Made by a program: the position numbers and the translations under genes. A stretch of 64,000 nucleotides of DNA from Natrinema mahii (GTDB lineage Archaea; Halobacteriota; Halobacteria; Halobacteriales; Natrialbaceae), in the NCBI GenBank assembly GCA_000690595.2, contig JHUT02000005.1, positions 123,254 through 187,253 of the forward strand. The letters are read 5' to 3'. Below the pieces are notes generated by a model. It was given only the letters and a program-made list of their open reading frames with translations. It was not told the origin of the DNA and ran no database searches. Positions 8,541-21,313 of the stretch are shown here, in pieces (within the stretch, counting starts at the first letter, position 1; each line of letters begins with the position of its first letter).

Positions 8541-9002
8541 TTACTGGTAGTCGACCTCCCCTTCACCTTCACCGACCCACGCGCCGCGGTCGGGTTCGCG
8601 GGAGGCGAGTGGGTCGATGTCCTTGTACCACGGTACCGCCTTCAACTGCTCTTTGTTGTAGACGAAGTCGTGTTTCGTGTCCGCGGTGAACTCGAAGTTC
8701 TCCGTCAGGAGGATTGCATCGACGGGACAGACCTCCTCGCACAATCGACAGTAAATACACTGCCCGATGTGGAGGTTGTACTGTTCGCCGTTTCGCTGGT
8801 CGTCCATCACGATCTGAATCGTGTCGTTCGGACAGACGTTCTCACACTGGCGACACCAGATACACCGCTCCTGGCTGAACTTGTGGACGCCCCTGAACCG
8901 GGGCGAGACGTCGGGTGCGGTCTCCGGATACTCCACCGTGAAGGTGGAGCCGTCCAGTGCGTGTTTCATCGTCGTTGCCATCGATTTGAGTATCCCGATC
9001 AT
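8541..9002 (-). CDS. nuoI: Complex I ferredoxin-like subunit I (two [4Fe-4S])
   Basis: This 153-residue protein has two classic cluster motifs, CIWCRQCENVCP (residues 47-58) and CIYCRLCEEVCP (82-93), which ligate clusters N6a and N6b and pass electrons toward NuoB. ATG 9002 was chosen because it overlaps the nuoH stop (ATGA). The frame is open upstream, but that stretch lies inside nuoH. The N-terminal 40 residues contain a short amphipathic part that would sit at the membrane interface. Confidence 0.95.
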   Translation of the reverse strand: MIGILKSMATTMKHALDGSTFTVEYPETAPDVSPRFRGVHKFSQERCIWCRQCENVCPNDTIQIVMDDQRNGEQYNLHIGQCIYCRLCEEVCPVDAILLTENFEFTADTKHDFVYNKEQLKAVPWYKDIDPLASREPDRGAWVGEGEGEVDYQ

Positions 9003-10063
9003 GCTATCAGCCCCACGATCACTGCGGTCAGGACGAGATTGGCGAAAGCCAGCACAAGCAGTCCCTTCCAGCCGATCTCGATCAGTTGGTCGATCCGGAC
9101 CCGGGGCACCGCCGAGCGGAGCCACTGGGTCAGGAAGAATACCGCCCAGATTTTGACGAGGAACCAGACGATGCCGAGCGCTGCCGGGCCCGGGCCGGCC
9201 GGACCGCCAAGGAAGATCGTCGCGATGATCGCACCGCCGAGGAAAATGTGGATGAATTCACCCATGTACACCAACACGAAGTAGACCGAGGAGTACTCGG
9301 TCTGGTAGCCTGCGACGATCTCCGTCGGCGCCTCGGGGGTGTCGAAGGGGTTGCGACCAACCTCCGCGAAATTCGCCACGAGAAAGAGAATGAATGCGAA
9401 CGGATTGACCAGCGCGTACCAGCGCGGAATCTCCACGCCCGCGAGCGAGATCAGCGGTTCAGCCTGCGCCGCAACGATCTCGCTCATCTGCAACGTTCCG
9501 GCGAAGATTACGACCGACATTCCGGTAATAACGAGCGGAATCTCGTAGGCGATATTCTGTGCCACCGCGCGGAGGCCGCCGATCAGCGAGTACTTGTTCG
9601 CCGACGCGTAGCCGGCCATCACCAGGCCGAGACTCGCGATTCCCGAGACGGCAAAGGCGTACGCCAGCCCAACCTCGGGATCGGCGAGGTGGATACCGCT
9701 GCCCATCGGAATCACGGCAAAGCCAACCAGAGCCGAGCCTGCGATGATGATCGGTGCGAGGTCGTAGGCCGGCCGATCCGCGTTTTCCGGAATGACTAGT
9801 TCCTTCGAGAGCAATCGGATGGCGTCCGCGATGATGATGAATAGCCCTGCAGGGCCGAGACGGTTGACCGCAATTCGGTCGGTAAAAGCGGCAGTAACTT
9901 TCCGTTTGGCCCAGACGACCAGCCCGGCGTTCGCTAATATAAGGTTGCTTACTAGAAACGCTGCCAGAAACGCAGCAATGAACTCACCGGCAACGCCTAG
10001 TCCGATGAAGTCGGCGATACGGTCGGGAAGGAGAACTGTACTGGACTGAAGTAGCACAGCCAT
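8999..10063 (-). CDS. nuoH: Complex I quinone-site membrane subunit H
   Basis: This 354-residue membrane protein shows NuoH signatures 'RLGPAGLFIIIADAIRLLSKE' near the N-terminus and 'RNPFDTPEAPTEIVAGYQTEYSS', the conserved acidic loop lining the quinone cavity. ATG 10063 is preferred over a GTG at 10066. The stop TAG of the small upstream gene (10068-10066) is only two bases away, so this gene is probably translated by re-initiation from that ORF. Normally nuoH follows nuoCD directly; here about 9 kb of other genes separate them. Confidence 0.95.
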   Translation of the reverse strand: MAVLLQSSTVLLPDRIADFIGLGVAGEFIAAFLAAFLVSNLILANAGLVVWAKRKVTAAFTDRIAVNRLGPAGLFIIIADAIRLLSKELVIPENADRPAYDLAPIIIAGSALVGFAVIPMGSGIHLADPEVGLAYAFAVSGIASLGLVMAGYASANKYSLIGGLRAVAQNIAYEIPLVITGMSVVIFAGTLQMSEIVAAQAEPLISLAGVEIPRWYALVNPFAFILFLVANFAEVGRNPFDTPEAPTEIVAGYQTEYSSVYFVLVYMGEFIHIFLGGAIIATIFLGGPAGPGPAALGIVWFLVKIWAVFFLTQWLRSAVPRVRIDQLIEIGWKGLLVLAFANLVLTAVIVGLIA

Positions 10064-10065
10064 CA

Positions 10066-10392
10066 CTACTCCACCTCCGCCACTTCATTGTCCATCACGT
10101 CCGGGTTCGATACGGCTACTCTCAACCCAGTCTCGGGAGGAAAGGGCACGCTGACGCGCTGGACTGTTTGGACTCTTTCGTCGCGTACATCGGTGACCGG
10201 TGACGGCTGCAAGCTATTCATAATAAAATCACTTGGTATTCGATGTTCGGATACTACGTTCTCCAGCCCGATGCATGGTAAAGCTTCGAGTTGATGGTCG
10301 TATATTCCTTTCGAAATTAGGCAGTCATAGCCGGCGTAATACGGCTTTTCTCGGGCGATTTCGACTCTTTCCCGTTCTGTCCGTGATCCCAT
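10066..10392 (-). CDS. Unrecognised 108-residue protein coupled to nuoH
   Basis: I do not recognise a family. The predicted protein starts at ATG 10392 (a TTG lies eight codons upstream) and has no membrane segment and no cysteine cluster. It contains 'KPYYAGYDCLISKGIYDHQL' and ends 'NEVAEVE'. Its stop is two bases from the ATG of nuoH. A TATA-like element on this strand (10418-10432) would place the transcript start only about 8 bases upstream of ATG 10392, which implies a near-leaderless mRNA. It therefore appears to head a new nuoH-N transcription unit created when the operon was split. Alternatives are a degraded 3' fragment of a larger imported gene, or a true small regulator of the complex. 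Confidence 0.55.
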   Translation of the reverse strand: MGSRTERERVEIAREKPYYAGYDCLISKGIYDHQLEALPCIGLENVVSEHRIPSDFIMNSLQPSPVTDVRDERVQTVQRVSVPFPPETGLRVAVSNPDVMDNEVAEVE

Positions 10393-10475: not shown

Positions 10476-11399
10476 ATGACGGTCGATCCAAGAGTAGTAC
10501 TCGTATTACTCGTCGGGTTTGCAGCGATTAGTAGTAGACTGTACTACCCAAAAATCGTCGAATCACTTCTCGAGCGAACGATGCCGATGCTTCCCTCGAC
10601 AGTTTCCCACTGGGCACTGGCCGGTCTGGGATTCGTGGTTACAAGTGAGGCGAACGGAACGTTCAGGTGGGGCGACGTACTGTCGTTCGCGGCGGTTCCG
10701 CTGGTGATCCTTTTCGTCATTGCCGGAACGTGGCTTATAAACGACATCTTCGATAAGGAGACGGACGAACACGCCAATCCGGATCGACCGACAGTTCGTG
10801 GAACGGTATCGGACCGGACACTGTGGATCAGTGGCGGCGGGTGTGTCGTACTCGCTGGAGCCTTTGCAGCTACTGTTGGTTCGTTTGCGGTGGCGGTACT
10901 TGGGACGTTCCTGCTTGTCAACGTCATTTACTCGGTTCCGCCGCTTCGTCTCAAGTCCCATGCGCTCACGAATATGCTCTGTAATGGGACGCTCGGCGGA
11001 CTCAGCTTTTTGCTCGGGACCGCTGTGGTAGTTGCCCGACCAACACCGTTTGTTTCGAGTCTGTTCGTTGCGGTCACGATCGCCGTAAGCGTTAATATCC
11101 CGTACTGGGACTTGAAAGACGCAAAACACGACGCGAAATCGGGCTCGGATACGATCGTCGTCCGGTACGGGGCCGAAAACGTTAGACGAGGCCTCATGAT
11201 CGCGCTACCTGCGACGTATTTCGTGTTCGTCGCACTCCTTGCGCTGTTCGAATGGGTTCCCGTATTTGCAGGTATCGCCGCGCTCGCAGTGTACGTTCTC
11301 CACGCTCGTCGCGACGACTACCAGCAACTCGCGTACGAACTGGATTTGGTTAACGGGCTGAATCACGTGGTACTTGCAGCCGTGTACGTGTTGTCGTGA
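10476..11399 (+). CDS. UbiA-family prenyltransferase (possible terpene cyclase)
   Basis: This 307-residue integral membrane protein has about nine hydrophobic segments. Two aspartate-rich motifs typical of the UbiA superfamily are intact: N89-D90-x-x-D93-x-x-x-D97 ('LINDIFDKETD') and D212-x-x-D215-x-x-x-D219 ('WDLKDAKHD'), which bind the prenyl diphosphate through magnesium. UbiA enzymes transfer isoprenoid chains to quinone, haem, chlorophyll or lipid acceptors, and some members cyclise prenyl diphosphates. The P450 and methyltransferase neighbours favour a specialised metabolite. A TTG is in frame four codons upstream; I chose ATG 10476. The acceptor, if any, cannot be told from sequence. 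Confidence 0.88.
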   Translation: MTVDPRVVLVLLVGFAAISSRLYYPKIVESLLERTMPMLPSTVSHWALAGLGFVVTSEANGTFRWGDVLSFAAVPLVILFVIAGTWLINDIFDKETDEHANPDRPTVRGTVSDRTLWISGGGCVVLAGAFAATVGSFAVAVLGTFLLVNVIYSVPPLRLKSHALTNMLCNGTLGGLSFLLGTAVVVARPTPFVSSLFVAVTIAVSVNIPYWDLKDAKHDAKSGSDTIVVRYGAENVRRGLMIALPATYFVFVALLALFEWVPVFAGIAALAVYVLHARRDDYQQLAYELDLVNGLNHVVLAAVYVLS

Positions 11400-11465
11400 C
11401 GGCCCCAACCGATAGACGTCGAACCCGCTGCGGTAGTACTGACCACACTACGCAGTGGTGTGCAG

Positions 11466-11551
11466 CTATAGTAGCCACTGAAACGATTCACACACTGATC
11501 ACGACGCTGTCGTGCGATCAGGTGTGCAATGACTTTCAGTGGCTACTATAG
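11466..11551. mobile_element. 86-bp MITE-like inverted-repeat element
   Basis: Perfect 18-bp terminal inverted repeats, CTATAGTAGCCACTGAAA (11466-11483) and its complement (11534-11551), flank 50 bp that continue the palindrome imperfectly (ATT-CACAC-CTGATC on both arms). There is no coding capacity. No target-site duplication is evident in the immediate flanks. The shape fits a miniature inverted-repeat element mobilised in trans by a haloarchaeal transposase. Alternatively it could act as a bidirectional terminator between the converging ubiA and P450 genes. Confidence 0.65.
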
Positions 11552-11603
11552 AAGACGTACTTCGAGCGATCACCTGATCGCAACCGTCCTCCCTTGGAAT
11601 CGG

Positions 11604-12815
11604 TTAGGGGGCCTCGAACTCGACCGGGAGACGTTCGACGCCGTGCATAAACGTATTCCAGATCGGATCGGGAGTTGAGCAGTCAACGGACAGATCGTCG
11701 AATCGGGAGAGCAGCTGGGAGACAGCGACCTTCGTCTCGAGTCGTGCGAGTGATGCACCGAGACACGTGTGGATACCGTGTCCGTATCCGATGTGTGGAT
11801 TCGGGTGACGATCGGGAACGAACGTCTCGGCATCGTCGAATCGTCCCGAATCTCGGTTAGCCGATGCGAGCCAGACGATCACCGGCTTTCCGGGCTCTAC
11901 CGTCGTCTCGAGGACTGTCGTCTGGCGTGTGACCGTTCGGGAAACAGCGGGGACGGACGACTGATAGCGGGCGACTTCCTCGATTGCCGTCTCGAGTGCG
12001 GAGGCATTCCCAGCGAGTTCGTCGAACAGCGACGGATCTTCTTCAGCAAACGTACGAACGGTATTGGTGATGAGTCCGGTCGTGGTAATATTGCCCGCGA
12101 TGAGAAGGAGCGCAGGGAATCCGATAATTTCGGAGAAGGTGAGGGGGTCTCCATCGATATCGGCGTGAACAAAACGGCTGATAAGGTCATCACGTGGATT
12201 CTGCTTGCGCTCCTCAATGATCTCGTACATATACGTCGCAAACTCTTGGCCTGCCGCCGCTTGCTCGTCGATTAGCTCCGTTTCGTCCTCCGTTCGGATG
12301 CGGGTTAACGAGCGACACCACGACCGGAAGTCGCTACGATCGTCCTCCGGAATACCGAGCAGTTCCGCAATGACGATAATCGGTAGTGGGATCGCGAAAT
12401 CCGCCACGAGGTCCATCTCTCCGTCGTCTTCCACCTCGTCCAACAGCTCGGTAGCAAGAGATCGTATTCGGGATTCTAGCGGCTGTATCTCGCTTGGTCG
12501 AAAGAAATCGTTGGCGACATCTCGAAGTTCCGGATGGCGTGGTGGATCGATATTAAAAATCGTGTCGTCGAGGACGTTCATTCGATCGGTCGGTAGCTCG
12601 GTGTCTGACGAGAACGTTTCCCAGTCTTCCAGTACCGTCCGAACTGCGTCCCAGGTGAAGACCTCGTACCGGTCCTGGTCGGTATTGTAGTGGATTCCCG
12701 GCGACGTTTCTCGCATCTTCCTGTACCACGGGAAAGGATCGAGTTGCCGCTCGTCGGAGCGAAGTTGGGCAGGTGGGCGGACGAACGGATCATCTCGGGT
12801 TGGATTCGAACTCAT
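11604..12815 (-). CDS. Cytochrome P450 (bacterial class I type), copy A
   Basis: This 403-residue soluble P450 has an I-helix oxygen-binding motif AGNITTT (240-246), the K-helix ExxR at E280-R283, and a haem loop 'YGHGIHTCLG' with the ligand cysteine at 351. The usual Phe of the haem loop is replaced by Tyr. It resembles the P450 at 15075-16295 throughout (shared 'FNIDPPRHPELR/FAVDPPRHTKLR' and C-terminal 'DPIWN' segments), so the two are paralogs. No dedicated ferredoxin or reductase lies nearby, so electrons must come from partners encoded elsewhere. It converges on ubiA across the MITE-like element. The likely role is oxidative tailoring of the cluster's isoprenoid product; this is an inference. 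Confidence 0.93.
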   Translation of the reverse strand: MSSNPTRDDPFVRPPAQLRSDERQLDPFPWYRKMRETSPGIHYNTDQDRYEVFTWDAVRTVLEDWETFSSDTELPTDRMNVLDDTIFNIDPPRHPELRDVANDFFRPSEIQPLESRIRSLATELLDEVEDDGEMDLVADFAIPLPIIVIAELLGIPEDDRSDFRSWCRSLTRIRTEDETELIDEQAAAGQEFATYMYEIIEERKQNPRDDLISRFVHADIDGDPLTFSEIIGFPALLLIAGNITTTGLITNTVRTFAEEDPSLFDELAGNASALETAIEEVARYQSSVPAVSRTVTRQTTVLETTVEPGKPVIVWLASANRDSGRFDDAETFVPDRHPNPHIGYGHGIHTCLGASLARLETKVAVSQLLSRFDDLSVDCSTPDPIWNTFMHGVERLPVEFEAP

Positions 12816-12888
12816 CGGATATCAGAACCATACGTGGATGGGTAATAAAATTATTGTCACATATAGATTTGTTTTATGTGTTTGCCCC

Positions 12889-14259
12889 TCACTTTCGAAC
12901 TCGCATGGTGATCTCTTCGTTCGGCCGAAGCGTAAGCGACGCTCGGACCTCCGGATCGGGGTCGCTGAGTAATTCGAAATCGACATGCTGAGCGATAATC
13001 GAGATAATGATCTTCAATTCGATCATCGCGAACCGTTTTCCCAGACATGCTCGTGGTCCGGCACCGAACGGTATGTACGCACAGTCGGGTAGTTCCGTCT
13101 CGAATTCGTCGGTCCATCGCTCCGGTTCGAATGTGTCGGGATCAGCGAAAAACCGCCGGTCGGTCTGGATCTTATGCACTGGGATCGAAGCAACCGTCCC
13201 CGCGGGGAACTGATAGCCACCGATCTCGACCGGATCGACTGCCTCGCGGTACAGCTGAGGGGCCGGTGGGTAGAGGCGCATGGCTTCTTTGGCAACGGCG
13301 GTCGTATACTCGAGTTCCTGAAGATCCGTTAGCGTTGGCGAATCGCCTCCGAGAACCGCCTCGTGTTCCTCGTCCAGTTTCTCGCGTTTCTCGGGGTGTT
13401 GAGAGAGGAGAAGCCAGGTATACGTGAGCGCGAGAGACGTCGTATCGTCGCCAGCGATAAAGAACGTAATGAGATGATCGCGAATTTCTTCGTGCGAGAG
13501 TCCCTCTCCGTCGGTGCCCGCTGCACTCAGGAGGTGATCGAGGAAGTCGTTCGGCCGCTCCGAAGAAGTCGTCCGTTCCTCGATGATTCGATCTACTTTC
13601 TCCTGCAGCTCGGACGCTGTTCGGTTAAAACGAAGGTTAGTCGGCGTCGGAACCCACCTCGGGAGATACGACGACAGATTTCGCGGATCCGACCGTTCGT
13701 TCAGGGCATCAGTTGTCCGACCGATAACGTTGTCGCGTTCGGAGATCTCCAGGTCGAACATCGATTTCGAAATGATCCGCAACGTGAGATATGACATCTC
13801 TTCGCGTAGCGAGATCACTGCTCCGTCGTCCCACTCGCGAATGAGATTCTGGGCGTACTCCACCATTATCGAGGTGTATTCCGAGATTCGATCTCTAGTA
13901 AACATCGGCTGCAACGTCTGTCGTTGTCGCCGCCATTGTTCTCCCTCAGTGAAGATTATCCCGGACGGACTGATATCTTGGCCACCGAACTGATCGGCGA
14001 AGAACTTGGTGTAGTCGTCAGAATCGGTGATCAATATCTGTTTCGCGTACTTTGGATGATAGACCGAACAGAAATTCAGGTTTCCGATCCGATATTCGAC
14101 GATCTGCCCGTACTTCTCGAGTCGGTCGTGAAACGCGAACGGGTCGCGAGCGAGGTGGTGCATGTGTCCGATCACTGGCAGTCCAGTTGGTCCGTGCGGG
14201 CGGGATCTGCCTCGTTCGATCGGTGACCCGTCAGATGCGGTTCGACGTTTTTCAGCCAT
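12889..14259 (-). CDS. Cytochrome P450 (CYP4/CYP102-like fatty-acid hydroxylase type), copy B
   Basis: This 456-residue P450 is of a different lineage from its two neighbours. It shows an N-terminal proline-rich hinge 'PHGPTGLPVIGHMHHL', I-helix AGDDTT (269-274), ExxR at E325-R328, PERF-like 'PERW', and haem motif 'FGAGPRACLG' with the cysteine at 405. The FxxGxRxCxG form with Arg is typical of class II/CYP102-like and eukaryotic P450s that hydroxylate fatty acids or terpenoids. ATG 14259 gives a normal N-terminus; the frame is open about 56 codons further upstream, but that part looks non-coding. The gap to copy A is 73 bp, containing copy A's promoter. Confidence 0.93.
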   Translation of the reverse strand: MAEKRRTASDGSPIERGRSRPHGPTGLPVIGHMHHLARDPFAFHDRLEKYGQIVEYRIGNLNFCSVYHPKYAKQILITDSDDYTKFFADQFGGQDISPSGIIFTEGEQWRRQRQTLQPMFTRDRISEYTSIMVEYAQNLIREWDDGAVISLREEMSYLTLRIISKSMFDLEISERDNVIGRTTDALNERSDPRNLSSYLPRWVPTPTNLRFNRTASELQEKVDRIIEERTTSSERPNDFLDHLLSAAGTDGEGLSHEEIRDHLITFFIAGDDTTSLALTYTWLLLSQHPEKREKLDEEHEAVLGGDSPTLTDLQELEYTTAVAKEAMRLYPPAPQLYREAVDPVEIGGYQFPAGTVASIPVHKIQTDRRFFADPDTFEPERWTDEFETELPDCAYIPFGAGPRACLGKRFAMIELKIIISIIAQHVDFELLSDPDPEVRASLTLRPNEEITMRVRK

Positions 14260-14646
14260 TACAGTTGATAATTTCTTCCGAGGAAATACTATTTTCGATA
14301 GTTCAGTGGGTGGATAATTACTCCGGTCGTGTCCGATAATATCCAGTGTGAATTGAGTCTCCGTTGCACGTCTTAATGCCGATGATCGACCGTACGACCG
14401 GGACGGACGCCAAAGCGGACAAACCATTCCGAATTCGAACGCTGCTCGTCACCGAGCGAACGAGCAGGTAGCAAACGAGAGGCAAGAGGCATTGACTGCC
14501 ACGTGAATCGTCCCGATCGGGAGGACACAGATCTGGTTTCGCGATCGAGCAGCGTCCCTAACCTGCTAGCCAAGGACGACAGTTGGATCGTTATTCATGC
14601 ATAAAGGCACAAAATACTTAATTATATATCTTCAATTAACATTCGT
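14260..14646. promoter_or_regulatory. Intergenic region with the MTH865-like gene promoter
   Basis: These 387 bp separate two diverging genes and no convincing gene is visible. A TATA-like run CTTAATTATATATC (14617-14630) sits about 23 bases before ATG 14647, giving a near-leaderless transcript to the right. A weaker A+T patch near 14262-14290 could serve the P450 to the left. The rest shows only ordinary composition. Confidence 0.5.
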
Positions 14647-14904
14647 ATGGTAGACAGAGATGAACTTCGCGGACAAATTGTAGAAGCCGTCGAGGACGCG
14701 TCCTATCCAGTCACAGACATCATGGAGTTAGTACCAGCCCTTCCACGGGGACCGAGTACACGGTTCGAGTCGGGTGATTTTTCGACGACACCGATGGAAC
14801 TCTCGATGGATATCCCACAAGGTTCATTGAACTTTCCGTACGAAACGCCCGAAGACTTCGCGGACGACTTGCTCGACGAGATGGAGAAGGCCGAGATAAT
14901 CTGA
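14647..14904 (+). CDS. MTH865-like small acidic protein
   Basis: This 85-residue acidic protein matches the small archaeal MTH865 family (helical, EF-hand-like fold in the solved methanogen member) by the pattern 'REQIVEA.EDA.YPV....ELVPALP.GP.TRFE', seen here from residue 8 to 40. It ends in an acidic helix 'DFADDLLDEMEKAEII'. The molecular role of the family is unknown. Haloarchaeal genomes usually carry such genes outside metabolic clusters; here it stands alone between two P450s that face the other way and has its own strong TATA box. It may be a regulatory or carrier-like partner of the cluster, which is speculation. Confidence 0.72.
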   Translation: MVDRDELRGQIVEAVEDASYPVTDIMELVPALPRGPSTRFESGDFSTTPMELSMDIPQGSLNFPYETPEDFADDLLDEMEKAEII

Positions 14905-15074
14905 TTCACTGGACGAGGTAATACCTCTGATCCTCCACTCAACGACGGAATCGCGTGGGTACGCAAACGCGGCCCGGACTGCATCGGGGATTCATCCCAA
15001 CTCCCGTGAAGCCGACCGACCGTCTTGGGGCTGAATCTCGTCGTCGGACATATACCGTCGTCTCACGGACCGGA

Positions 15075-16295
15075 TTATTTCGGTTCGAATTCAATGTTGA
15101 GTTCCTTGAAGCCGTGTAGTGCCGGATTCCAGATTGGATCTAGTTCGTCGTCGACGAGGCGGATATCGGTGAGTCGTTCGAACAATGTCCCGAGTGCTTT
15201 CCGCATGACCAGCCGTGAGAGGGTTGCACCGATACAGATGTGTACTCCGTGGCCGAACGATAGGTGCGGATTTGGTGAACGGTCGGGGACGAACGTCTCC
15301 GGATTGTCAAACGTCGATCCGTCGCGATTAGCCGAGGCGATCCAGACCATCACGAGTTCCCCTTTCTGCAGTTGTTTTCCGTGGAACTCGAAGTCACGGC
15401 TGGCCATCCGGGTCGGTTTCGGGAACGTCGGACGGTACCGGAGTACTTCCTCTATTGCAGTGGCCAGTGCGTCGTCGTTCCCTGCGAGGTCGTCGAAGAG
15501 ACCCGGGTCCGAGTTCCAGAGACAGGTCATCGCGTTCGCCATCTCGAGGGTCGTCGTTGCGTTACCCGCCAGCAGGAGCAGAATGCCGTAGCCGACGATA
15601 TTGTCGATAGGCATCGGCTCTCCATCAATTTCGGACTGTGCTAGCAAACTGATGAAGTCGTCACCAGGCTCTTCACGGCGCTCTCTCGCCAATCGAGAGA
15701 ACAATTCGTTCATCTCCGTACTCGCCTGTTCTTGTTTCTGGATGGACTGTTCGACCGAGGAAAACTGGCCGCGAGTAATAATGTTATTCCAGCGAACGAA
15801 CGTATCGATATCGTCACTGGGCAATCCGAGCATTCGAGTAATCGTTCGCACCTGGATCGGCTGGGCGAAGTCCTCGATGAATTCCATTTCCCCGTCATCA
15901 GCGATGTCATCGATGAGGTCGTTCGCGAGTCGTTCGACGACGGGACCGTACTCGCGGATATTGTCCGATTTGAAGAACTCGTCAGCCGGTTTACGGAGTT
16001 TCGTATGTCGAGGGGGGTCCACCGCGAAGATCGTATCCCGAATCAGCCCGTTTCTGACGGCCAGGTTCGGCGTCGATTTGAATCGATCGTGATCGGTAAG
16101 TGCCTCTTTGGCGGCATCGTACCCAAATATCTCCCAGTACCCCTGTTCCTTGTTGAATCGAACGGGATGGCTTCGTCGTTGCTTTCGGAGCCACGGAAAC
16201 GGGTTGCGTTGTCTTTCCTTTGATCGCAGCGGCTCGATCGGAGACATCCATCCGGCGAGCGTCGGCTCTTCGTCGGGCATTGTCATATGTTTCAT
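15075..16295 (-). CDS. Cytochrome P450 (bacterial class I type), copy C
   Basis: This 406-residue P450 has the I-helix motif AGNATTT (243-249), ExxR at E283-R286 and haem loop 'FGHGVHICIG' with the ligand cysteine at 354. It is a paralog of copy A (same length, parallel sequence blocks). Several ATGs lie close together at the start (codons 1, 4 and 6); position 16295 is the longest. A TATA-like run (16300-16335, e.g. TATAATAATATTATA) lies just upstream. With the oppositely oriented methyltransferase it shares a 288-bp divergent promoter region. It probably oxidises the same pathway intermediate series as copy A. Confidence 0.93.
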   Translation of the reverse strand: MKHMTMPDEEPTLAGWMSPIEPLRSKERQRNPFPWLRKQRRSHPVRFNKEQGYWEIFGYDAAKEALTDHDRFKSTPNLAVRNGLIRDTIFAVDPPRHTKLRKPADEFFKSDNIREYGPVVERLANDLIDDIADDGEMEFIEDFAQPIQVRTITRMLGLPSDDIDTFVRWNNIITRGQFSSVEQSIQKQEQASTEMNELFSRLARERREEPGDDFISLLAQSEIDGEPMPIDNIVGYGILLLLAGNATTTLEMANAMTCLWNSDPGLFDDLAGNDDALATAIEEVLRYRPTFPKPTRMASRDFEFHGKQLQKGELVMVWIASANRDGSTFDNPETFVPDRSPNPHLSFGHGVHICIGATLSRLVMRKALGTLFERLTDIRLVDDELDPIWNPALHGFKELNIEFEPK

Positions 16296-16531
16296 ACGGA
16301 AGATTATTAATTATTTCGACCCTATAATAATATTATATCTGGGCCAGTAACGTAGCCCGATATTGTGAGGCGAACACCCAATCGTCCTGCCGGTTGAGCC
16401 GAAACGATTCGTTTGTTGAGTATCGTGACGAAATCCAATTCCCTTCTGGGCGGGTGCCCATCCCACTGCCATCCGAATAAGTGGGGATTGAATTCGATCG
16501 ATGCGACAGTTGATGAATAAATAGATATTGA

Positions 16532-16549
16532 TTTATATATTGTCACCAA
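16532..16549 (+). promoter_or_regulatory. Promoter of the methyltransferase gene
   Basis: TTTATATATTGTCACCAA is a strong TATA-like element followed by GTCACCAA, the same octamer found next to the TATA box of ubiA (10431-10438). It lies 35-52 bases ahead of ATG 16584. The surrounding 16296-16583 region is A+T-rich and holds no gene. Confidence 0.5.
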
Positions 16550-16583
16550 ATAATTTATTTCTCCCCGGTTCGAATGCCCACTA

Positions 16584-17441
16584 ATGAGTTCGAACATAAC
16601 GAAAAGCGATATCCGAAAGTACTACGAGGAGAACCATCTCTCGTTCGAGGACGGCTGGGTTGAGGAACAGGACCACAAGGGAATCCACGTCGGCTACTAC
16701 GATGACAACCAGATGGATCACGACGAGGCCATCGAGAACATGACGCGGTTCGGAGCTGATCGAATCGATATCCAATCCGACGATCGCGTTCTCTGCGCGG
16801 GATGTGGAATCGGTGGCCCTGCAGTCTGGATCGCCGCAAACCGCGGTGCGAATGTGGTCGGAATCAATATCAGTGAATCTCAACTCGAGCAGGCGCGCAC
16901 GCTGGCGAAGAACGAAGGCGTGACTGATCGAACACAGTTCCAGTACGACGATTTCACGGAGATGTCGACGCTCGAGGAAGACGCGTTCGACGTCGTGTGG
17001 GGGCTCGAAGCGATTTGTTATGCCAAGAGCAAGCGAGCGTTCCTAGAGGAGGCACACCGCGTCCTTCGACCGGGCGGACGGCTGATCGTCATTGACGGGT
17101 TTATGAATATACGGTCCCCTTCCCCGTCGGGGAAGCGGAAGATGAAAAAATGGCTCGATGCGTGGGCGATTCCACACCTCACACACGTCGACGACTTCCG
17201 AGGATATCTCGACGAGATCGGGTACCGAGAACTCGAGGAGGAAGAAATAACCTCACGAGTGATCAAGTCACTCAAACTCATGTACCTGTACAGTCTGTAC
17301 GGGTATCCGGTCTCGAAGGCCCTCCAAATGCTTGGCCGGCAAACGGAATCGCAGGTTCAGAACACCGTTGGCTGCCATTACGTCTATCGATCGATAACCG
17401 ACGGCCTCTGGACGTACAACGTATTCACTGCCGAGAAGTAG
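16584..17441 (+). CDS. SAM-dependent methyltransferase (SmtA / tocopherol-MT-like)
   Basis: This 285-residue class I methyltransferase has motif I 'VLCAGCGIGGPAVWIA' (69-84, the SAM-binding glycine loop), a motif II acidic 'GINISESQLEQA', and the post-motif region 'FDVVWGLEAICYAKSKRAFLEEAHRVLRPGG'. The N-terminal 'YYDDNQMDHDEAIENM' resembles the small-molecule C/O-methyltransferases that act on isoprenoids and tocopherols. It is transcribed away from P450 copy C from a shared A+T-rich region with TATA at 16532-16541. The probable role is methylation of the cluster product; the substrate is unknown. Codon choice is more A/T-tolerant than in the nuo genes. Confidence 0.88.
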   Translation: MSSNITKSDIRKYYEENHLSFEDGWVEEQDHKGIHVGYYDDNQMDHDEAIENMTRFGADRIDIQSDDRVLCAGCGIGGPAVWIAANRGANVVGINISESQLEQARTLAKNEGVTDRTQFQYDDFTEMSTLEEDAFDVVWGLEAICYAKSKRAFLEEAHRVLRPGGRLIVIDGFMNIRSPSPSGKRKMKKWLDAWAIPHLTHVDDFRGYLDEIGYRELEEEEITSRVIKSLKLMYLYSLYGYPVSKALQMLGRQTESQVQNTVGCHYVYRSITDGLWTYNVFTAEK

Positions 17442-17665: not shown

Positions 17666-18211
17666 TCAGGAACCGCTATCGAAGGCATCGAGTGTAGCGA
17701 CTGCGTCGTCGATGGTCGGATGGATTTCGTCGGCGTAGTATTGAACGAAGTGCGGAGCGGGCTCGCTGACGACGACAGTCGGTATACCGTGCCTCCGAGC
17801 GTGTAGTAGCTCTGCCATCGTCCCACAGGACGGTTCTGGGAGATACGCGAGGAAGACATCCGCTTGTTCGACCAGTTCCAGATCCCGTTCGACGATCGAC
17901 GAAACGATCGAATCGGGAGTGTGTTCGGGGACGATTTCCGGTGATTCGAGTACGGCCGTGGCCGACGTGTCTTCAATTGCGGCCGTAATCGCGTCGAGAA
18001 ACGGTTCGCTCTGTAATTTCTCGAAATCGAGTGCTTGCAACGGATTGGTTCGATCGGAATTAACCGTCGCGAGCTGTTCGAATACATCCACGTATTGATC
18101 GACCGGTGAGAATCCGTGTTTATCGAGGAGCGTATAGATCCGTACTCGATAGTCGACGATGGTGTCTACGTCTCTGAAGTCGATCGGTCCAGCGACGAAA
18201 ACATCGGTCAT
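17666..18211 (-). CDS. Nucleoside 2-deoxyribosyltransferase-like protein
   Basis: This 181-residue protein opens 'DVFVAGPIDFRD' and contains 'LVEQADVFLAYLPEPSCGTMAELLHARRHGIPTVVV', the pattern of the nucleoside 2-deoxyribosyltransferase / DUF4406 Rossmann-like family (AGP motif, D-x-x-x-A and the GT-x-E-x-x-x-A catalytic Glu). Such proteins cleave N-glycosidic bonds or bind nucleotides. Its start (18211) overlaps the stop of the upstream ASKHA gene by four bases, so the two are co-translated. The actual substrate is unknown, and pairing with an acetate-kinase-like protein suggests joint chemistry on a phosphorylated or nucleotide-like metabolite. Confidence 0.75.
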   Translation of the reverse strand: MTDVFVAGPIDFRDVDTIVDYRVRIYTLLDKHGFSPVDQYVDVFEQLATVNSDRTNPLQALDFEKLQSEPFLDAITAAIEDTSATAVLESPEIVPEHTPDSIVSSIVERDLELVEQADVFLAYLPEPSCGTMAELLHARRHGIPTVVVSEPAPHFVQYYADEIHPTIDDAVATLDAFDSGS

Positions 18212-19194
18212 GGGTGCTGAACGCGGGGGCTGTTTTTAACTGGAACGCCCAGTATATCTTGCTTTCCGACGTGGACATCTCTGGCGATCATCGCTGCTCC
18301 GGCCGCGGTACTGAACTCCGAACAGTGTTGTACCGGTGCCAGTTCACCGAGCGACTCTCGTAACTTTCCTTGGACGTCAACAGGGGATTCAAGCCGGCTG
18401 AGCCGACCACTGAGCGCGATTCCGTCGAGTGATTCGTCGTGGACGTGGTTCGCGAATGCGAATAGGGAGTAAACGTTGTGGAGCGTCGCGAAGTAAACCA
18501 TTTCGAGAAGCTCCGGATCTAATGTTTCCTTTACGTCTTCGAACGTGTACCCCGACCGCCGCAGGATGCCGGAATCCATGAATATGTCTGAGAAATCGGC
18601 CTCGTCATGAAGCACGCGACGGACCGATCCAAGCCCTGCCCATCCGTGAACGAGACCGATCCAGTGGAAGGCACCAACGAGGCGTCCGTCGTAAACGAGT
18701 GTTGCCATTGCGGAGGAACTCGCGTTTGCTGCAATGAAGTGGTTCGCGTCACCGGTGAACTGATCCGCTGCATACCGAGTCATCGCCACCTTGTCTGCTC
18801 CTGTTATCGTATTGTAATGGCTAAAATACGGATGCAAACAGTCGATATGATGGTTTACACCGGGGAACGCGACTGTCGGAATGTCTGATTGCTGGAGGTC
18901 GTCGAAGACCTTCGAACCAGTTCCCGACGGGTGTCCGGCCCCGAGGTTATCAACAACACCTCGATTCTCTACGGTTTCTATCGGACGGATCTCTCCGAAA
19001 TTGTCGCCATAACTGTAGCCGATGGCCGCCATCTGGATCGCGTCGACATCGACGTGTTCGGACAGTAAATCCACATACGACCATTCGTTTTCGTTTTCCG
19101 GAGATCGTTCAATGACGAACGTCTCTCGATCTCCTGTCTCCGATACGAGACTAGTTTTTACGCCTGTTGTGGAATGATCTATTCCAATATACAT
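18208..19194 (-). CDS. ASKHA-fold protein resembling methanogenesis marker protein 12
   Basis: This 328-residue protein begins 'MYIGIDHSTTGVK', a phosphate-1 motif of the acetate kinase/sugar kinase/Hsp70 fold. The following blocks resemble the methanogenesis marker 12 (UPF0285) family as I recall it: 'AAIGYSYGDN', 'VENRGVVDNLGAGHPSGTGSKVFDDL', and 'IPTVAFPGVNHHID...YNTITGADKV'. That family is considered nearly restricted to methanogens and has no proven activity. ATG 19194 is about 20-25 bases from a strong TATA element, so the transcript is near-leaderless. It is followed by the overlapping deoxyribosyltransferase-like gene. An alternative is a distant FGGY/BcrAD-type ATPase. The assignment is from remembered sequence pattern, not a search. 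Confidence 0.65.
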   Translation of the reverse strand: MYIGIDHSTTGVKTSLVSETGDRETFVIERSPENENEWSYVDLLSEHVDVDAIQMAAIGYSYGDNFGEIRPIETVENRGVVDNLGAGHPSGTGSKVFDDLQQSDIPTVAFPGVNHHIDCLHPYFSHYNTITGADKVAMTRYAADQFTGDANHFIAANASSSAMATLVYDGRLVGAFHWIGLVHGWAGLGSVRRVLHDEADFSDIFMDSGILRRSGYTFEDVKETLDPELLEMVYFATLHNVYSLFAFANHVHDESLDGIALSGRLSRLESPVDVQGKLRESLGELAPVQHCSEFSTAAGAAMIARDVHVGKQDILGVPVKNSPRVQHP

Positions 19195-19273: not shown

Positions 19274-19558
19274 TTGCGCTTCGCTGTCGGCGGTATGGGT
19301 CGAACAGGCGCAAAACTCCATGCTTTCACGCGGGGAGAGATACCGCCACAGACTCAACCGATAGCGCGTAGCCCGCACGTCTGCGAGTTATGTGATACTG
19401 TGAGAAACGCGGACGTGACTGGAGCGGTGAATATTCAGAGAAAGATAGCGAGCGTCCCCGAATAGGGAATATGAGTAACGATCGTTTGGCATGGCCAGCA
19501 GTCTATATGTCTCACCGACTTTCAGGACGTCTCGTACCGAAAGAATACACGGCCTGGA
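19274..19558 (+). pseudogene. TnpB (IS200/IS605-type) C-terminal relic
   Basis: The frame ending at 19465 reads '...HVCELCDTVRNADVTGAVNIQRKI', the end of the zinc ribbon and the RuvC-III motif (NAD-x-N/T-AA/GA-x-NI) of TnpB. After a frame change near 19463 the next frame continues '...NMSNDRLAWPAVYMSHRLSGRLVPKEYTAWNP', which has the shape of the usual C-terminal tail of haloarchaeal TnpB. The N-terminal 80-90 percent is missing and the remainder is frameshifted, so it is dead. It abuts the 3' end of nuoCD on the opposite strand and marks the border of the island. No TnpA lies nearby. Confidence 0.7.
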
Positions 19559-19657: not shown

Positions 19658-21313
19658 TCACCGATCGACTTCGCCGAGTACGATATCTAGACTCCCCAAC
19701 GACGCGATCAGGTCCGGGATGTACTCGCCTTCGGACATCTCGGGCAGTGCCGAGAGGTTGTGGAAACACGGGCTCCGGATCTTGAACCGACCCGGCTTGT
19801 CGGTGCCGTCCGAGCGGATGTAGATCCCGAGTTCGCCTTTCGCACCTTCGACGGCGCGATAGATCTCCGTGTCGGCGTCCGGCTTCAGCGTCCGCGGCAC
19901 GTTGCTCTGGACGGTGCGTTCGTCCTCGGGCCAGTCCTCGAGCAGGTCGAGACACTGCTCGATGATCTTCGCGGACTCCTCGACTTCTTGCATGCGCACG
20001 AGGACCCGAGAGTAGTTGTCACAGCCGTCCTCGGTGACGACGTCCCACTCGAGGTTGTCGTAGTAGCCGTAGGGGTCGTCCCGGCGGAGGTCGTAGTCGA
20101 TGCCCGAGCCGCGGGCGACGGGGCCGGTACAGCCGTACTGTTTGGCCACTTCCGGTTCCAAGATTCCGGTGTCGTGGGTCCGGACCTGGAAGATCTCGTT
20201 GCCGGTCAGCAGGTCGTGGTACTCGTCGACCTTCGCGGGCAGCCCGTCGAGGAAGTCGCGGGTCTTCTCGATGAACTCCTTGCGGGGCTCGGGCAGGTCC
20301 CAGGCGACCCCGCCCAGCCGGAAGTAGTTGAACATGAGCCGCTGGCCGGTCAGGTCCTCTAAGATGTCTTGGACGACCTCGCGGTCGCGCATGCCGTACT
20401 GGAAGATGGCGGTGAAGTCGCCGTAGACGTCGAGCGCGAAGGTCGCAAGCGCGAGCATGTGGGAGGCGATCCGGCACAGCTCCGCGCCCATCGTCCGGAT
20501 GACCTGCGCGTACTCGGGGACCTCGATGTCCGCGAGATCCTCGGCCGTACGCGCGTAGGCCCACTCGTTGAGGAGGCCGGCCGAGACGTAGTCCCAGCGG
20601 TCGGGGTAGGGCATGATCTGATGCCGGTAGGTCCCTTGCTGGCACATCTGCTCCTCACAGCGGTGCAGGTAGCCGATGTCGGGGTCGACGTCGACGACCG
20701 TCTCGCCGTCCAGGACCGTTTCGATGTGGAGGACGCCGTGGGTCGCCGGGTGGTGGGGACCGATGTTGAGGAACATCGTGTCCGACTCGTCATCGTGGTG
20801 GTCCGGCTGGACCGGGTTGGCGTGTTCGCTCAGGGTCACCAGCTGCGGTTTCTCCTGGTTGTAGTCCTCGGAGAGCGGATGGCCCTGCCACGTCTCGGGC
20901 AGGAGGATCCGTCGCGGGTCGGGGTGGCCCTCGTAGTCGATCCCGACGAGGTCGAAGGCTTCCCGCTCGTGCCAGTCGGCGGTTCGGAAGACCGGTTCGG
21001 CGCTCTGGCTGACCGGATCGTCGGTCGTCGTCGGCACGACGATCGAGACCTCCTGGGTCGGGTCGGCGTACTTCCGGAGGTGGTAGATCGACTCGTACCG
21101 GTCGGCGTACTGCTGGGCCGTGAGGTTCGCGAGGTGGTCGAAGCCGGCCTCGTCGCGCAGGTCCGAGAGGACCGATTGGACGTCGTCCGGCCGGACGACG
21201 AACCCCGGCGCGTTCAAATGGTCGTCGCGCGCGAGCGCGCGGTCACCGAGCAGCGCCTCGAGGTCGTCGTCCGATAGCTCGATCGCCGGGTCGCGCTCGA
21301 GTCCCGTACTCAT
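19658..21313 (-). CDS. nuoCD: Complex I fused subunit CD
   Basis: This 551-residue fusion has an N-terminal NuoC-like (30 kDa) domain with '[35 protein letters not shown]' followed by the 49-kDa NuoD domain from about residue 180: '[15 protein letters not shown]', '[11 protein letters not shown]' and the C-terminal '[27 protein letters not shown]'. The quinone-site His and Asp region is intact. The C/D fusion is normal in haloarchaea and many bacteria. Its ATG overlaps the nuoB stop. Downstream, where nuoH should follow, the TnpB relic and the island begin, so this gene now ends the proximal nuo transcript unless read-through is long. Confidence 0.95.

Follow-up and report, generated by a model that had tools for sequence, protein, structure and literature searches.

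The 64,000-nucleotide stretch of Natrinema mahii DNA analyzed here (the window; contig JHUT02000005.1, positions 123,254 to 187,253) contains an AT-rich island, at about 10.05-19.65 kb, with genes for a UbiA-superfamily prenyltransferase, three cytochromes P450 and an S-adenosylmethionine (SAM)-dependent methyltransferase (Table 1). The most economical account, which we favor without being sure of it, is that this is a horizontally moving specialized-metabolism island whose products probably make an oxidized, methylated isoprenoid. An original prediction, made from the sequence, had taken positions 10476-17441 as the cluster. That interval is too small, and the prediction missed three more genes, a miniature inverted-repeat transposable element (MITE) and the location of the island among the nuo genes of respiratory complex I.

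The five genes that the original prediction did name are borne out, in their positions, by the open reading frames (ORFs) and Pfam scores, and their active-site motifs are intact, as it had said. The prenyltransferase belongs to the UbiA superfamily by its match to PF01040 (99.4 bits; cut-off 34.2) and its intact NDxxDxxxD (NDIFDKETD) and DxxDxxxD (DLKDAKHD) motifs. It is not an equivalog of MenA, digeranylgeranylglyceryl phosphate synthase, chlorophyll synthase or the other NCBIfam models of this kind, the best of which scored 64.8 bits against a cut-off of 269. In a tree of UbiA proteins it groups with those of Halocatena marina and Haloarcula amylolytica in a clade from accessory clusters (support 98/99). 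The genome has seven other UbiA-family genes, one of them MenA-like, and none falls inside this clade.

All three P450s have an intact I-helix AGxxTT, ExxR and haem Cys loop, and their Pfam scores (81, 308 and 94 bits) are far above the curated cut-offs, which identifies them as P450s. P450A and P450C are paralogs (41% identity over 391 aa) and P450B is of a different lineage (~26% identity to P450A, over partial length), as had been proposed. The nearest solved structures to P450A are 5l90 and YjiB, which we take to be CYP109-type enzymes. Terpenoids are among the CYP109 substrates listed in PMC9962201. The nearest solved structures to P450B are 7wzl and 3dbg, and its nearest NCBIfam models are the albaflavenone and pentalenene oxygenases, both matched below cut-off. 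P450A and P450C form one clade (98/91) with cluster P450s from H. amylolytica and the metagenome-assembled genome QS_1_68_20, separate from the widespread haloarchaeal P450 clade; branches in this tree are long, and the joining of P450A with QS_1_68_20 was flagged as a possible long-branch effect. The methyltransferase matches Methyltransf_11 at 74 bits, far above the cut-off, and has an intact SAM motif I region. Its nearest solved structures (MitM, 3bus and a D-glucose O-methyltransferase) are small-molecule methyltransferases.

Two of the genes that had been missed could bear on the polar part of the product. They overlap by 4 bases, and we call their products "-like" because both score below curated family thresholds. 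The methanogenesis marker 12 (MM12)-like protein reaches about 179.1-179.7 bits against TIGR03281 (cut-off 180.85), just below the score for membership, and is a close relative of that family. Its predicted structure (predicted local distance difference test score, pLDDT, 72; predicted template modeling score, pTM, 0.78) has the ASKHA fold and matches acetate, butyrate and sugar/ROK kinases with E values down to 2e-9; it is probably a small-molecule kinase or ATPase. A literature search on MM12 function returned nothing usable. The nucleoside deoxyribosyltransferase (NDT)-like protein scores 26.3 bits against PF05014 (cut-off 28.8), as the five siblings scanned also score below the cut-off, and has a profile match to 2-deoxyribosyltransferase (E 1e-4). 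DNPH1/RCL and deoxyribosyltransferases are among the top matches to its model (pLDDT 83), at moderate similarity (TMt mostly 0.6-0.7, root mean square deviation mostly 4-6 Å), and the model and profile together suggest that it probably belongs to the deoxyribosyltransferase/DNPH1 superfamily. D110 and E134 are invariant in six sequences and may correspond to the catalytic pair of Rcl. The third gene that had been missed encodes an MTH865-like small protein (Table 1).

The island lies between nuoCD and nuoH, with same-strand nuo genes on either side, and thus splits the complex I operon. The identities of nuoCD and nuoH come from Pfam and NCBIfam matches; the genes beyond them are presumably nuoB (on the nuoCD side) and nuoI and nuoL (on the nuoH side), judging from sequence and position. 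GC content is 0.53-0.57 within the island and 0.65-0.70 outside. In all 24 of the other genomes of the genus examined, nuoCD and nuoH are adjacent, with a gap of 14-68 bp. H. amylolytica has an island at the same site, whereas 25 other Haloarcula genomes have a gap of 0-24 bp there and no island. An insertion at this site in a conserved respiratory operon is found in two archaeal families. In both hosts the 5' end of nuoH (9850-10066 of the window) is divergent and AT-richer, with third-position GC of 0.55 and 0.70 over the first ~60-70 codons, compared with 0.85-0.94 in the relatives sampled. Horizontal mobility of the island is indicated by its low GC content, by the site being empty in congeners, by a sibling locus on a plasmid and by the two nuoCD-nuoH insertions. 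We also considered a single transfer, with a shared nuoH end, behind both nuo islands. This is unsupported because the similarity between the two nuoH starts (46%) does not exceed the background value (47%). Internal gene order differs between the two islands.

Relatives of the island genes are rare. Among 391 haloarchaeal genomes (N. mahii included), UbiA was found in 8, MM12 in 8 and the methyltransferase in 37; for MM12, a contig scan with a single protein as query gave no matches and an alignment-based scan recovered relatives. The original prediction had allowed that the genes might never co-occur elsewhere, and this search answers the point: at least six further loci in haloarchaea have the genes together. 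The H. amylolytica locus contains, between nuoH and nuoCD, an amidohydrolase gene and genes for MM12, NDT, UbiA, methyltransferase, an MTH865-like protein and P450A, the last six packed in one ~7 kb block. Natrialba aegyptia has two methyltransferases, a glycosyltransferase, a P450B-like gene, NDT and MM12, and Haloarcula pellucida has a glycosyltransferase, a squalene-hopene cyclase (SHC)-family cyclase, a TylF-like methyltransferase, MM12 and NDT. In QS_1_68_20, a P450 that is 51% identical to P450A adjoins MM12. Halocatena marina and a plasmid of Halorussus caseinilyticus (NZ_CP119811.1) share a common gene order at 71-84% identity: amidohydrolase, MM12, NDT, ABC ATPase, two permeases, cyclase, MMPL, polyprenyl synthetase and UbiA. 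The plasmid genes (locus L167, 11565-25606) form a co-directional operon with several overlaps and a GMP reductase-type gene in front. Across the loci, MM12 and NDT are the most constant pair. Apart from H. amylolytica, none of the sibling loci examined has nuo genes. A distant MM12 relative (locus L053, 10905-14270, genome G389) lies beside a gene resembling those for salicylyl/anthraniloyl-CoA hydroxylases (salicylyl-CoA 5-hydroxylase/oxidoreductase-like).

A hypergeometric test over ~390 genomes, which left out the query genome and ignored genome relatedness, indicated that cluster genes co-occur above chance. Two genomes have both UbiA and MM12 (0.11 expected, P=0.004), two have both the methyltransferase and MM12 (0.16 expected, P=0.009), and two have both the cyclase and MM12 (0.09 expected, P=0.003); UbiA and the methyltransferase did not co-occur significantly in these genomes (P=0.13). 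The P values are indicative because the cut-offs for calling a gene present (E up to 1e-38 for UbiA and up to 1e-70 for the methyltransferase) were chosen after the search results had been seen. In every shared genome the genes are also neighbors, a point outside the test.

SHC-family cyclases are present in 5 of 371 haloarchaeal genomes, and the relatives carry D-W-D-D, fitting the DxDD motif of class II cyclases. Two of the five loci belong to the MM12 locus family; the other three (L174, L175 and L176) have the cyclase beside an MMPL gene, and two of these three also carry a P450B-like gene. One UbiA-like neighbor at these three loci is a UbiA-family protein by Pfam, and the similar gene at L174 was judged by resemblance only. 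The presence of P450B-like and UbiA-family genes at cyclase loci outside the MM12 locus family lends support, though not proof, to the idea that P450B acts on a terpenoid.

Based on these results, we postulate that UbiA joins a host polyprenyl diphosphate to an acceptor, that two or three of the P450s hydroxylate or further oxidize the prenylated product, and that the methyltransferase caps an oxygen or a carbon. The MM12-like protein, with its kinase fold, and the NDT-like protein, with its probable nucleotide N-glycosidase/ribosyltransferase fold, would probably make or alter the polar part, which may be a head derived from ribose or a nucleotide; we offer an acceptor of this kind as a hypothesis only. 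The steps could follow this order in a single N. mahii pathway. No described haloarchaeal pathway matched the island. The original prediction had read the genes as belonging to a terpenoid or prenyl-quinone pathway. The first part is supported, as a functional prenyl- or terpenoid-type cluster, given its recurrence and the cyclase, polyprenyl synthetase and exporters of sibling loci.

Several observations weigh against a single isoprenoid pathway. The island genes are not one operon: they occupy both strands and seem to have several promoters. Gene content differs between loci, and no two loci of the P450/methyltransferase type have an identical set. The co-occurrence test has small overlaps, of 2 genomes each, and is blind to relatedness. 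P450B shares only ~34% identity with its relatives, and these may be matches at the level of the family. Lastly, no SHC-family gene (PF13243) was found in the N. mahii genome, and a cyclized product is therefore not implied in this host.

The second part of the predicted logic, modification of a respiratory quinone, is in our judgment improbable. In that pathway UbiA would prenylate an aromatic ring, the P450s would hydroxylate it, the methyltransferase would methylate it, and the island would sit among nuo genes because Nuo uses the modified quinone. The combination of prenylation, hydroxylation and methylation does follow the logic of quinone synthesis, and the H. amylolytica island shares the nuoCD-nuoH site with this one. 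However, a quinone pathway is unsupported because the MenA-like and other housekeeping UbiA genes are elsewhere in the genome; the remaining sibling loci examined are without nuo genes, and MM12, NDT, the amidohydrolase and the cyclase have no role in quinone pathways. It is less probable still that the genes form no unit and piled up independently at an insertion hot spot. Mixed strands, a MITE, a transposase-like remnant, low GC and a site used twice would all fit such a history, but the same families recur together in unrelated places and co-occur above chance, and the existence of plasmid and chromosomal operons, including a co-directional one on a plasmid, weakens the argument further. 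We give equally little credence to an island that degrades or detoxifies terpenoids or aromatics with the P450s as first oxygenases: P450s often open catabolic routes, and the distant MM12 relative in G389 has a hydroxylase-like neighbor of that kind, but UbiA, the methyltransferase and the polyprenyl synthetase and cyclase of sibling loci are biosynthetic, and neither ring-cleavage nor beta-oxidation genes were seen in the island.

Table 1. Features of the island and its borders (coordinates are those of the window).
Feature	Position	Strand	Basis
nuoH, island border	8999..10066	-	first ~60 codons divergent
Small ORF, 108 aa, between island and nuoH	10066..10392	-	sequence read
UbiA-superfamily prenyltransferase	10476..11399 (alternative start 10464)	+	PF01040; Asp-rich motifs
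MITE, 86 bp, perfect 18-nt terminal inverted repeats	11466..11551	.	inverted-repeat search
Cytochrome P450 A	11604..12815	-	Pfam; motifs; groups with cluster P450s of H. amylolytica and QS_1_68_20
Cytochrome P450 B	12889..14259 (longest ORF to 14427)	-	Pfam; NCBIfam; motifs
MTH865-like small protein	14647..14904	+	PF07747, 78 bits; 49% match in H. amylolytica cluster (L012)
Cytochrome P450 C, relative of A	15075..16295	-	Pfam; motifs; tree
SAM-dependent methyltransferase, small-molecule type	16584..17441	+	Methyltransf_11; nearest structures
NDT-like protein (probable member of the nucleoside deoxyribosyltransferase/DNPH1 superfamily; DNPH1 is an NMP N-glycosidase)	17666..18211	-	profile, predicted fold
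MM12-like ASKHA-fold protein ("methanogenesis marker 12-like")	18208..19194	-	TIGR03281, predicted fold
nuoCD, island border	19658..21313	-	Pfam/NCBIfam

P450B probably starts at 14259 (Met57 of the longest ORF) rather than at 14427, judging by its Pfam match, which begins at residue 77, and by the sequence that precedes Met57. The MITE has more than 40 copies across the genome; it is a later insertion and outside the pathway. The small ORF next to nuoH had no match in a Pfam scan and belongs to no known family. At the other edge, a short ORF (19274-19465, plus strand) has a weak match to a Cas12f1-like/TnpB TNB domain (17.9 bits; cut-off 26.3) and is possibly a transposase remnant. Similar TATTGTCAC-type elements (a 23-nt repeat) lie upstream of P450A and the methyltransferase (12852-12874 and 16538-16560), and TATA-N-GTCAC is matched upstream of UbiA (10427) and of the methyltransferase. 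These could, weakly, represent a shared operator, and we treat the promoter element as a lead only, since by our estimate about one such TATA match is expected by chance. Elsewhere in the genome, a second relative of the methyltransferase (L061; G000:C1:98149-98982) is broken by one TGA. On a Haloferax larsenii plasmid, a region (L168, 8696-12876) that resembles loci L010, L011, L013 and L014 has three prenyltransferase-type genes, a geranylgeranyl reductase family gene and a phosphoribosyltransferase family gene.

We speculate, and consider it unlikely though worth stating, that the loci are a mobile haloarchaeal pathway family for nucleotide- or ribose-headed isoprenoids, in which MM12 and NDT would prepare a head made of a sugar or nucleotide, the isoprenoid would come from UbiA or a class II cyclase, and decoration would fall to P450s and methyltransferases, with some members making sterol- or hopanoid-like cyclic lipids. 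If true, such lipids would occur in a domain reported to be without them: a 2019 review states that archaea produce no sterols and no hopanoids (PMC6770870). A 2023 paper holds that, besides halocin and bacterioruberin (to which it adds lanthipeptides), archaeal gene clusters had no confident link to a secondary metabolite (PMC10105419), and most archaeal P450s have no known function (PMC9962201). Small-molecule chemistry of oxidized, methylated isoprenoids is hardly known in archaea, and this rare but recurring locus family provides a testable gene set in cultivable strains. It also connects a relative of a methanogen marker protein with genes for isoprenoid tailoring, and SHC-family genes are present in haloarchaea.

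The island resembles several known systems in part. Archaeal P450 operons also have haloarchaeal P450s beside SAM methyltransferases and no redox partner in the operon, but the passages of PMC9962201 consulted describe no association with a prenyltransferase, MM12 or NDT. Bacterial terpenoid clusters, such as those for albaflavenone and pentalenolactone, likewise combine P450s from related families with an enzyme that forms an isoprenoid, and P450B is nearest to their oxygenase models; in contrast, all of these NCBIfam scores are far below the curated cut-offs and the island yielded no identifiable class I terpene synthase. We know of no counterpart of MM12 or NDT in these bacterial clusters. 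The bacteriohopanepolyol pathway (SHC, HpnH, HpnG, HpnI and HpnN) is an analogy only. The sibling loci have an SHC-family DxDD cyclase, a protein with a probable N-glycosidase fold, a glycosyltransferase that weakly matches HpnI and an MMPL transporter, but the sibling stretches searched contain no HpnH-like gene (a search for a radical-SAM analogue found only chance CxxxCxxC frames) and the island genome contains no SHC. Lastly, although L159, the paralog in this genome that we take from its motif to be Lye-like, groups elsewhere in the UbiA tree, the haloarchaeal bacterioruberin genes, with their UbiA-type lycopene elongase, are like the island in having a UbiA-superfamily enzyme that acts, or in the island would act, on an isoprenoid.

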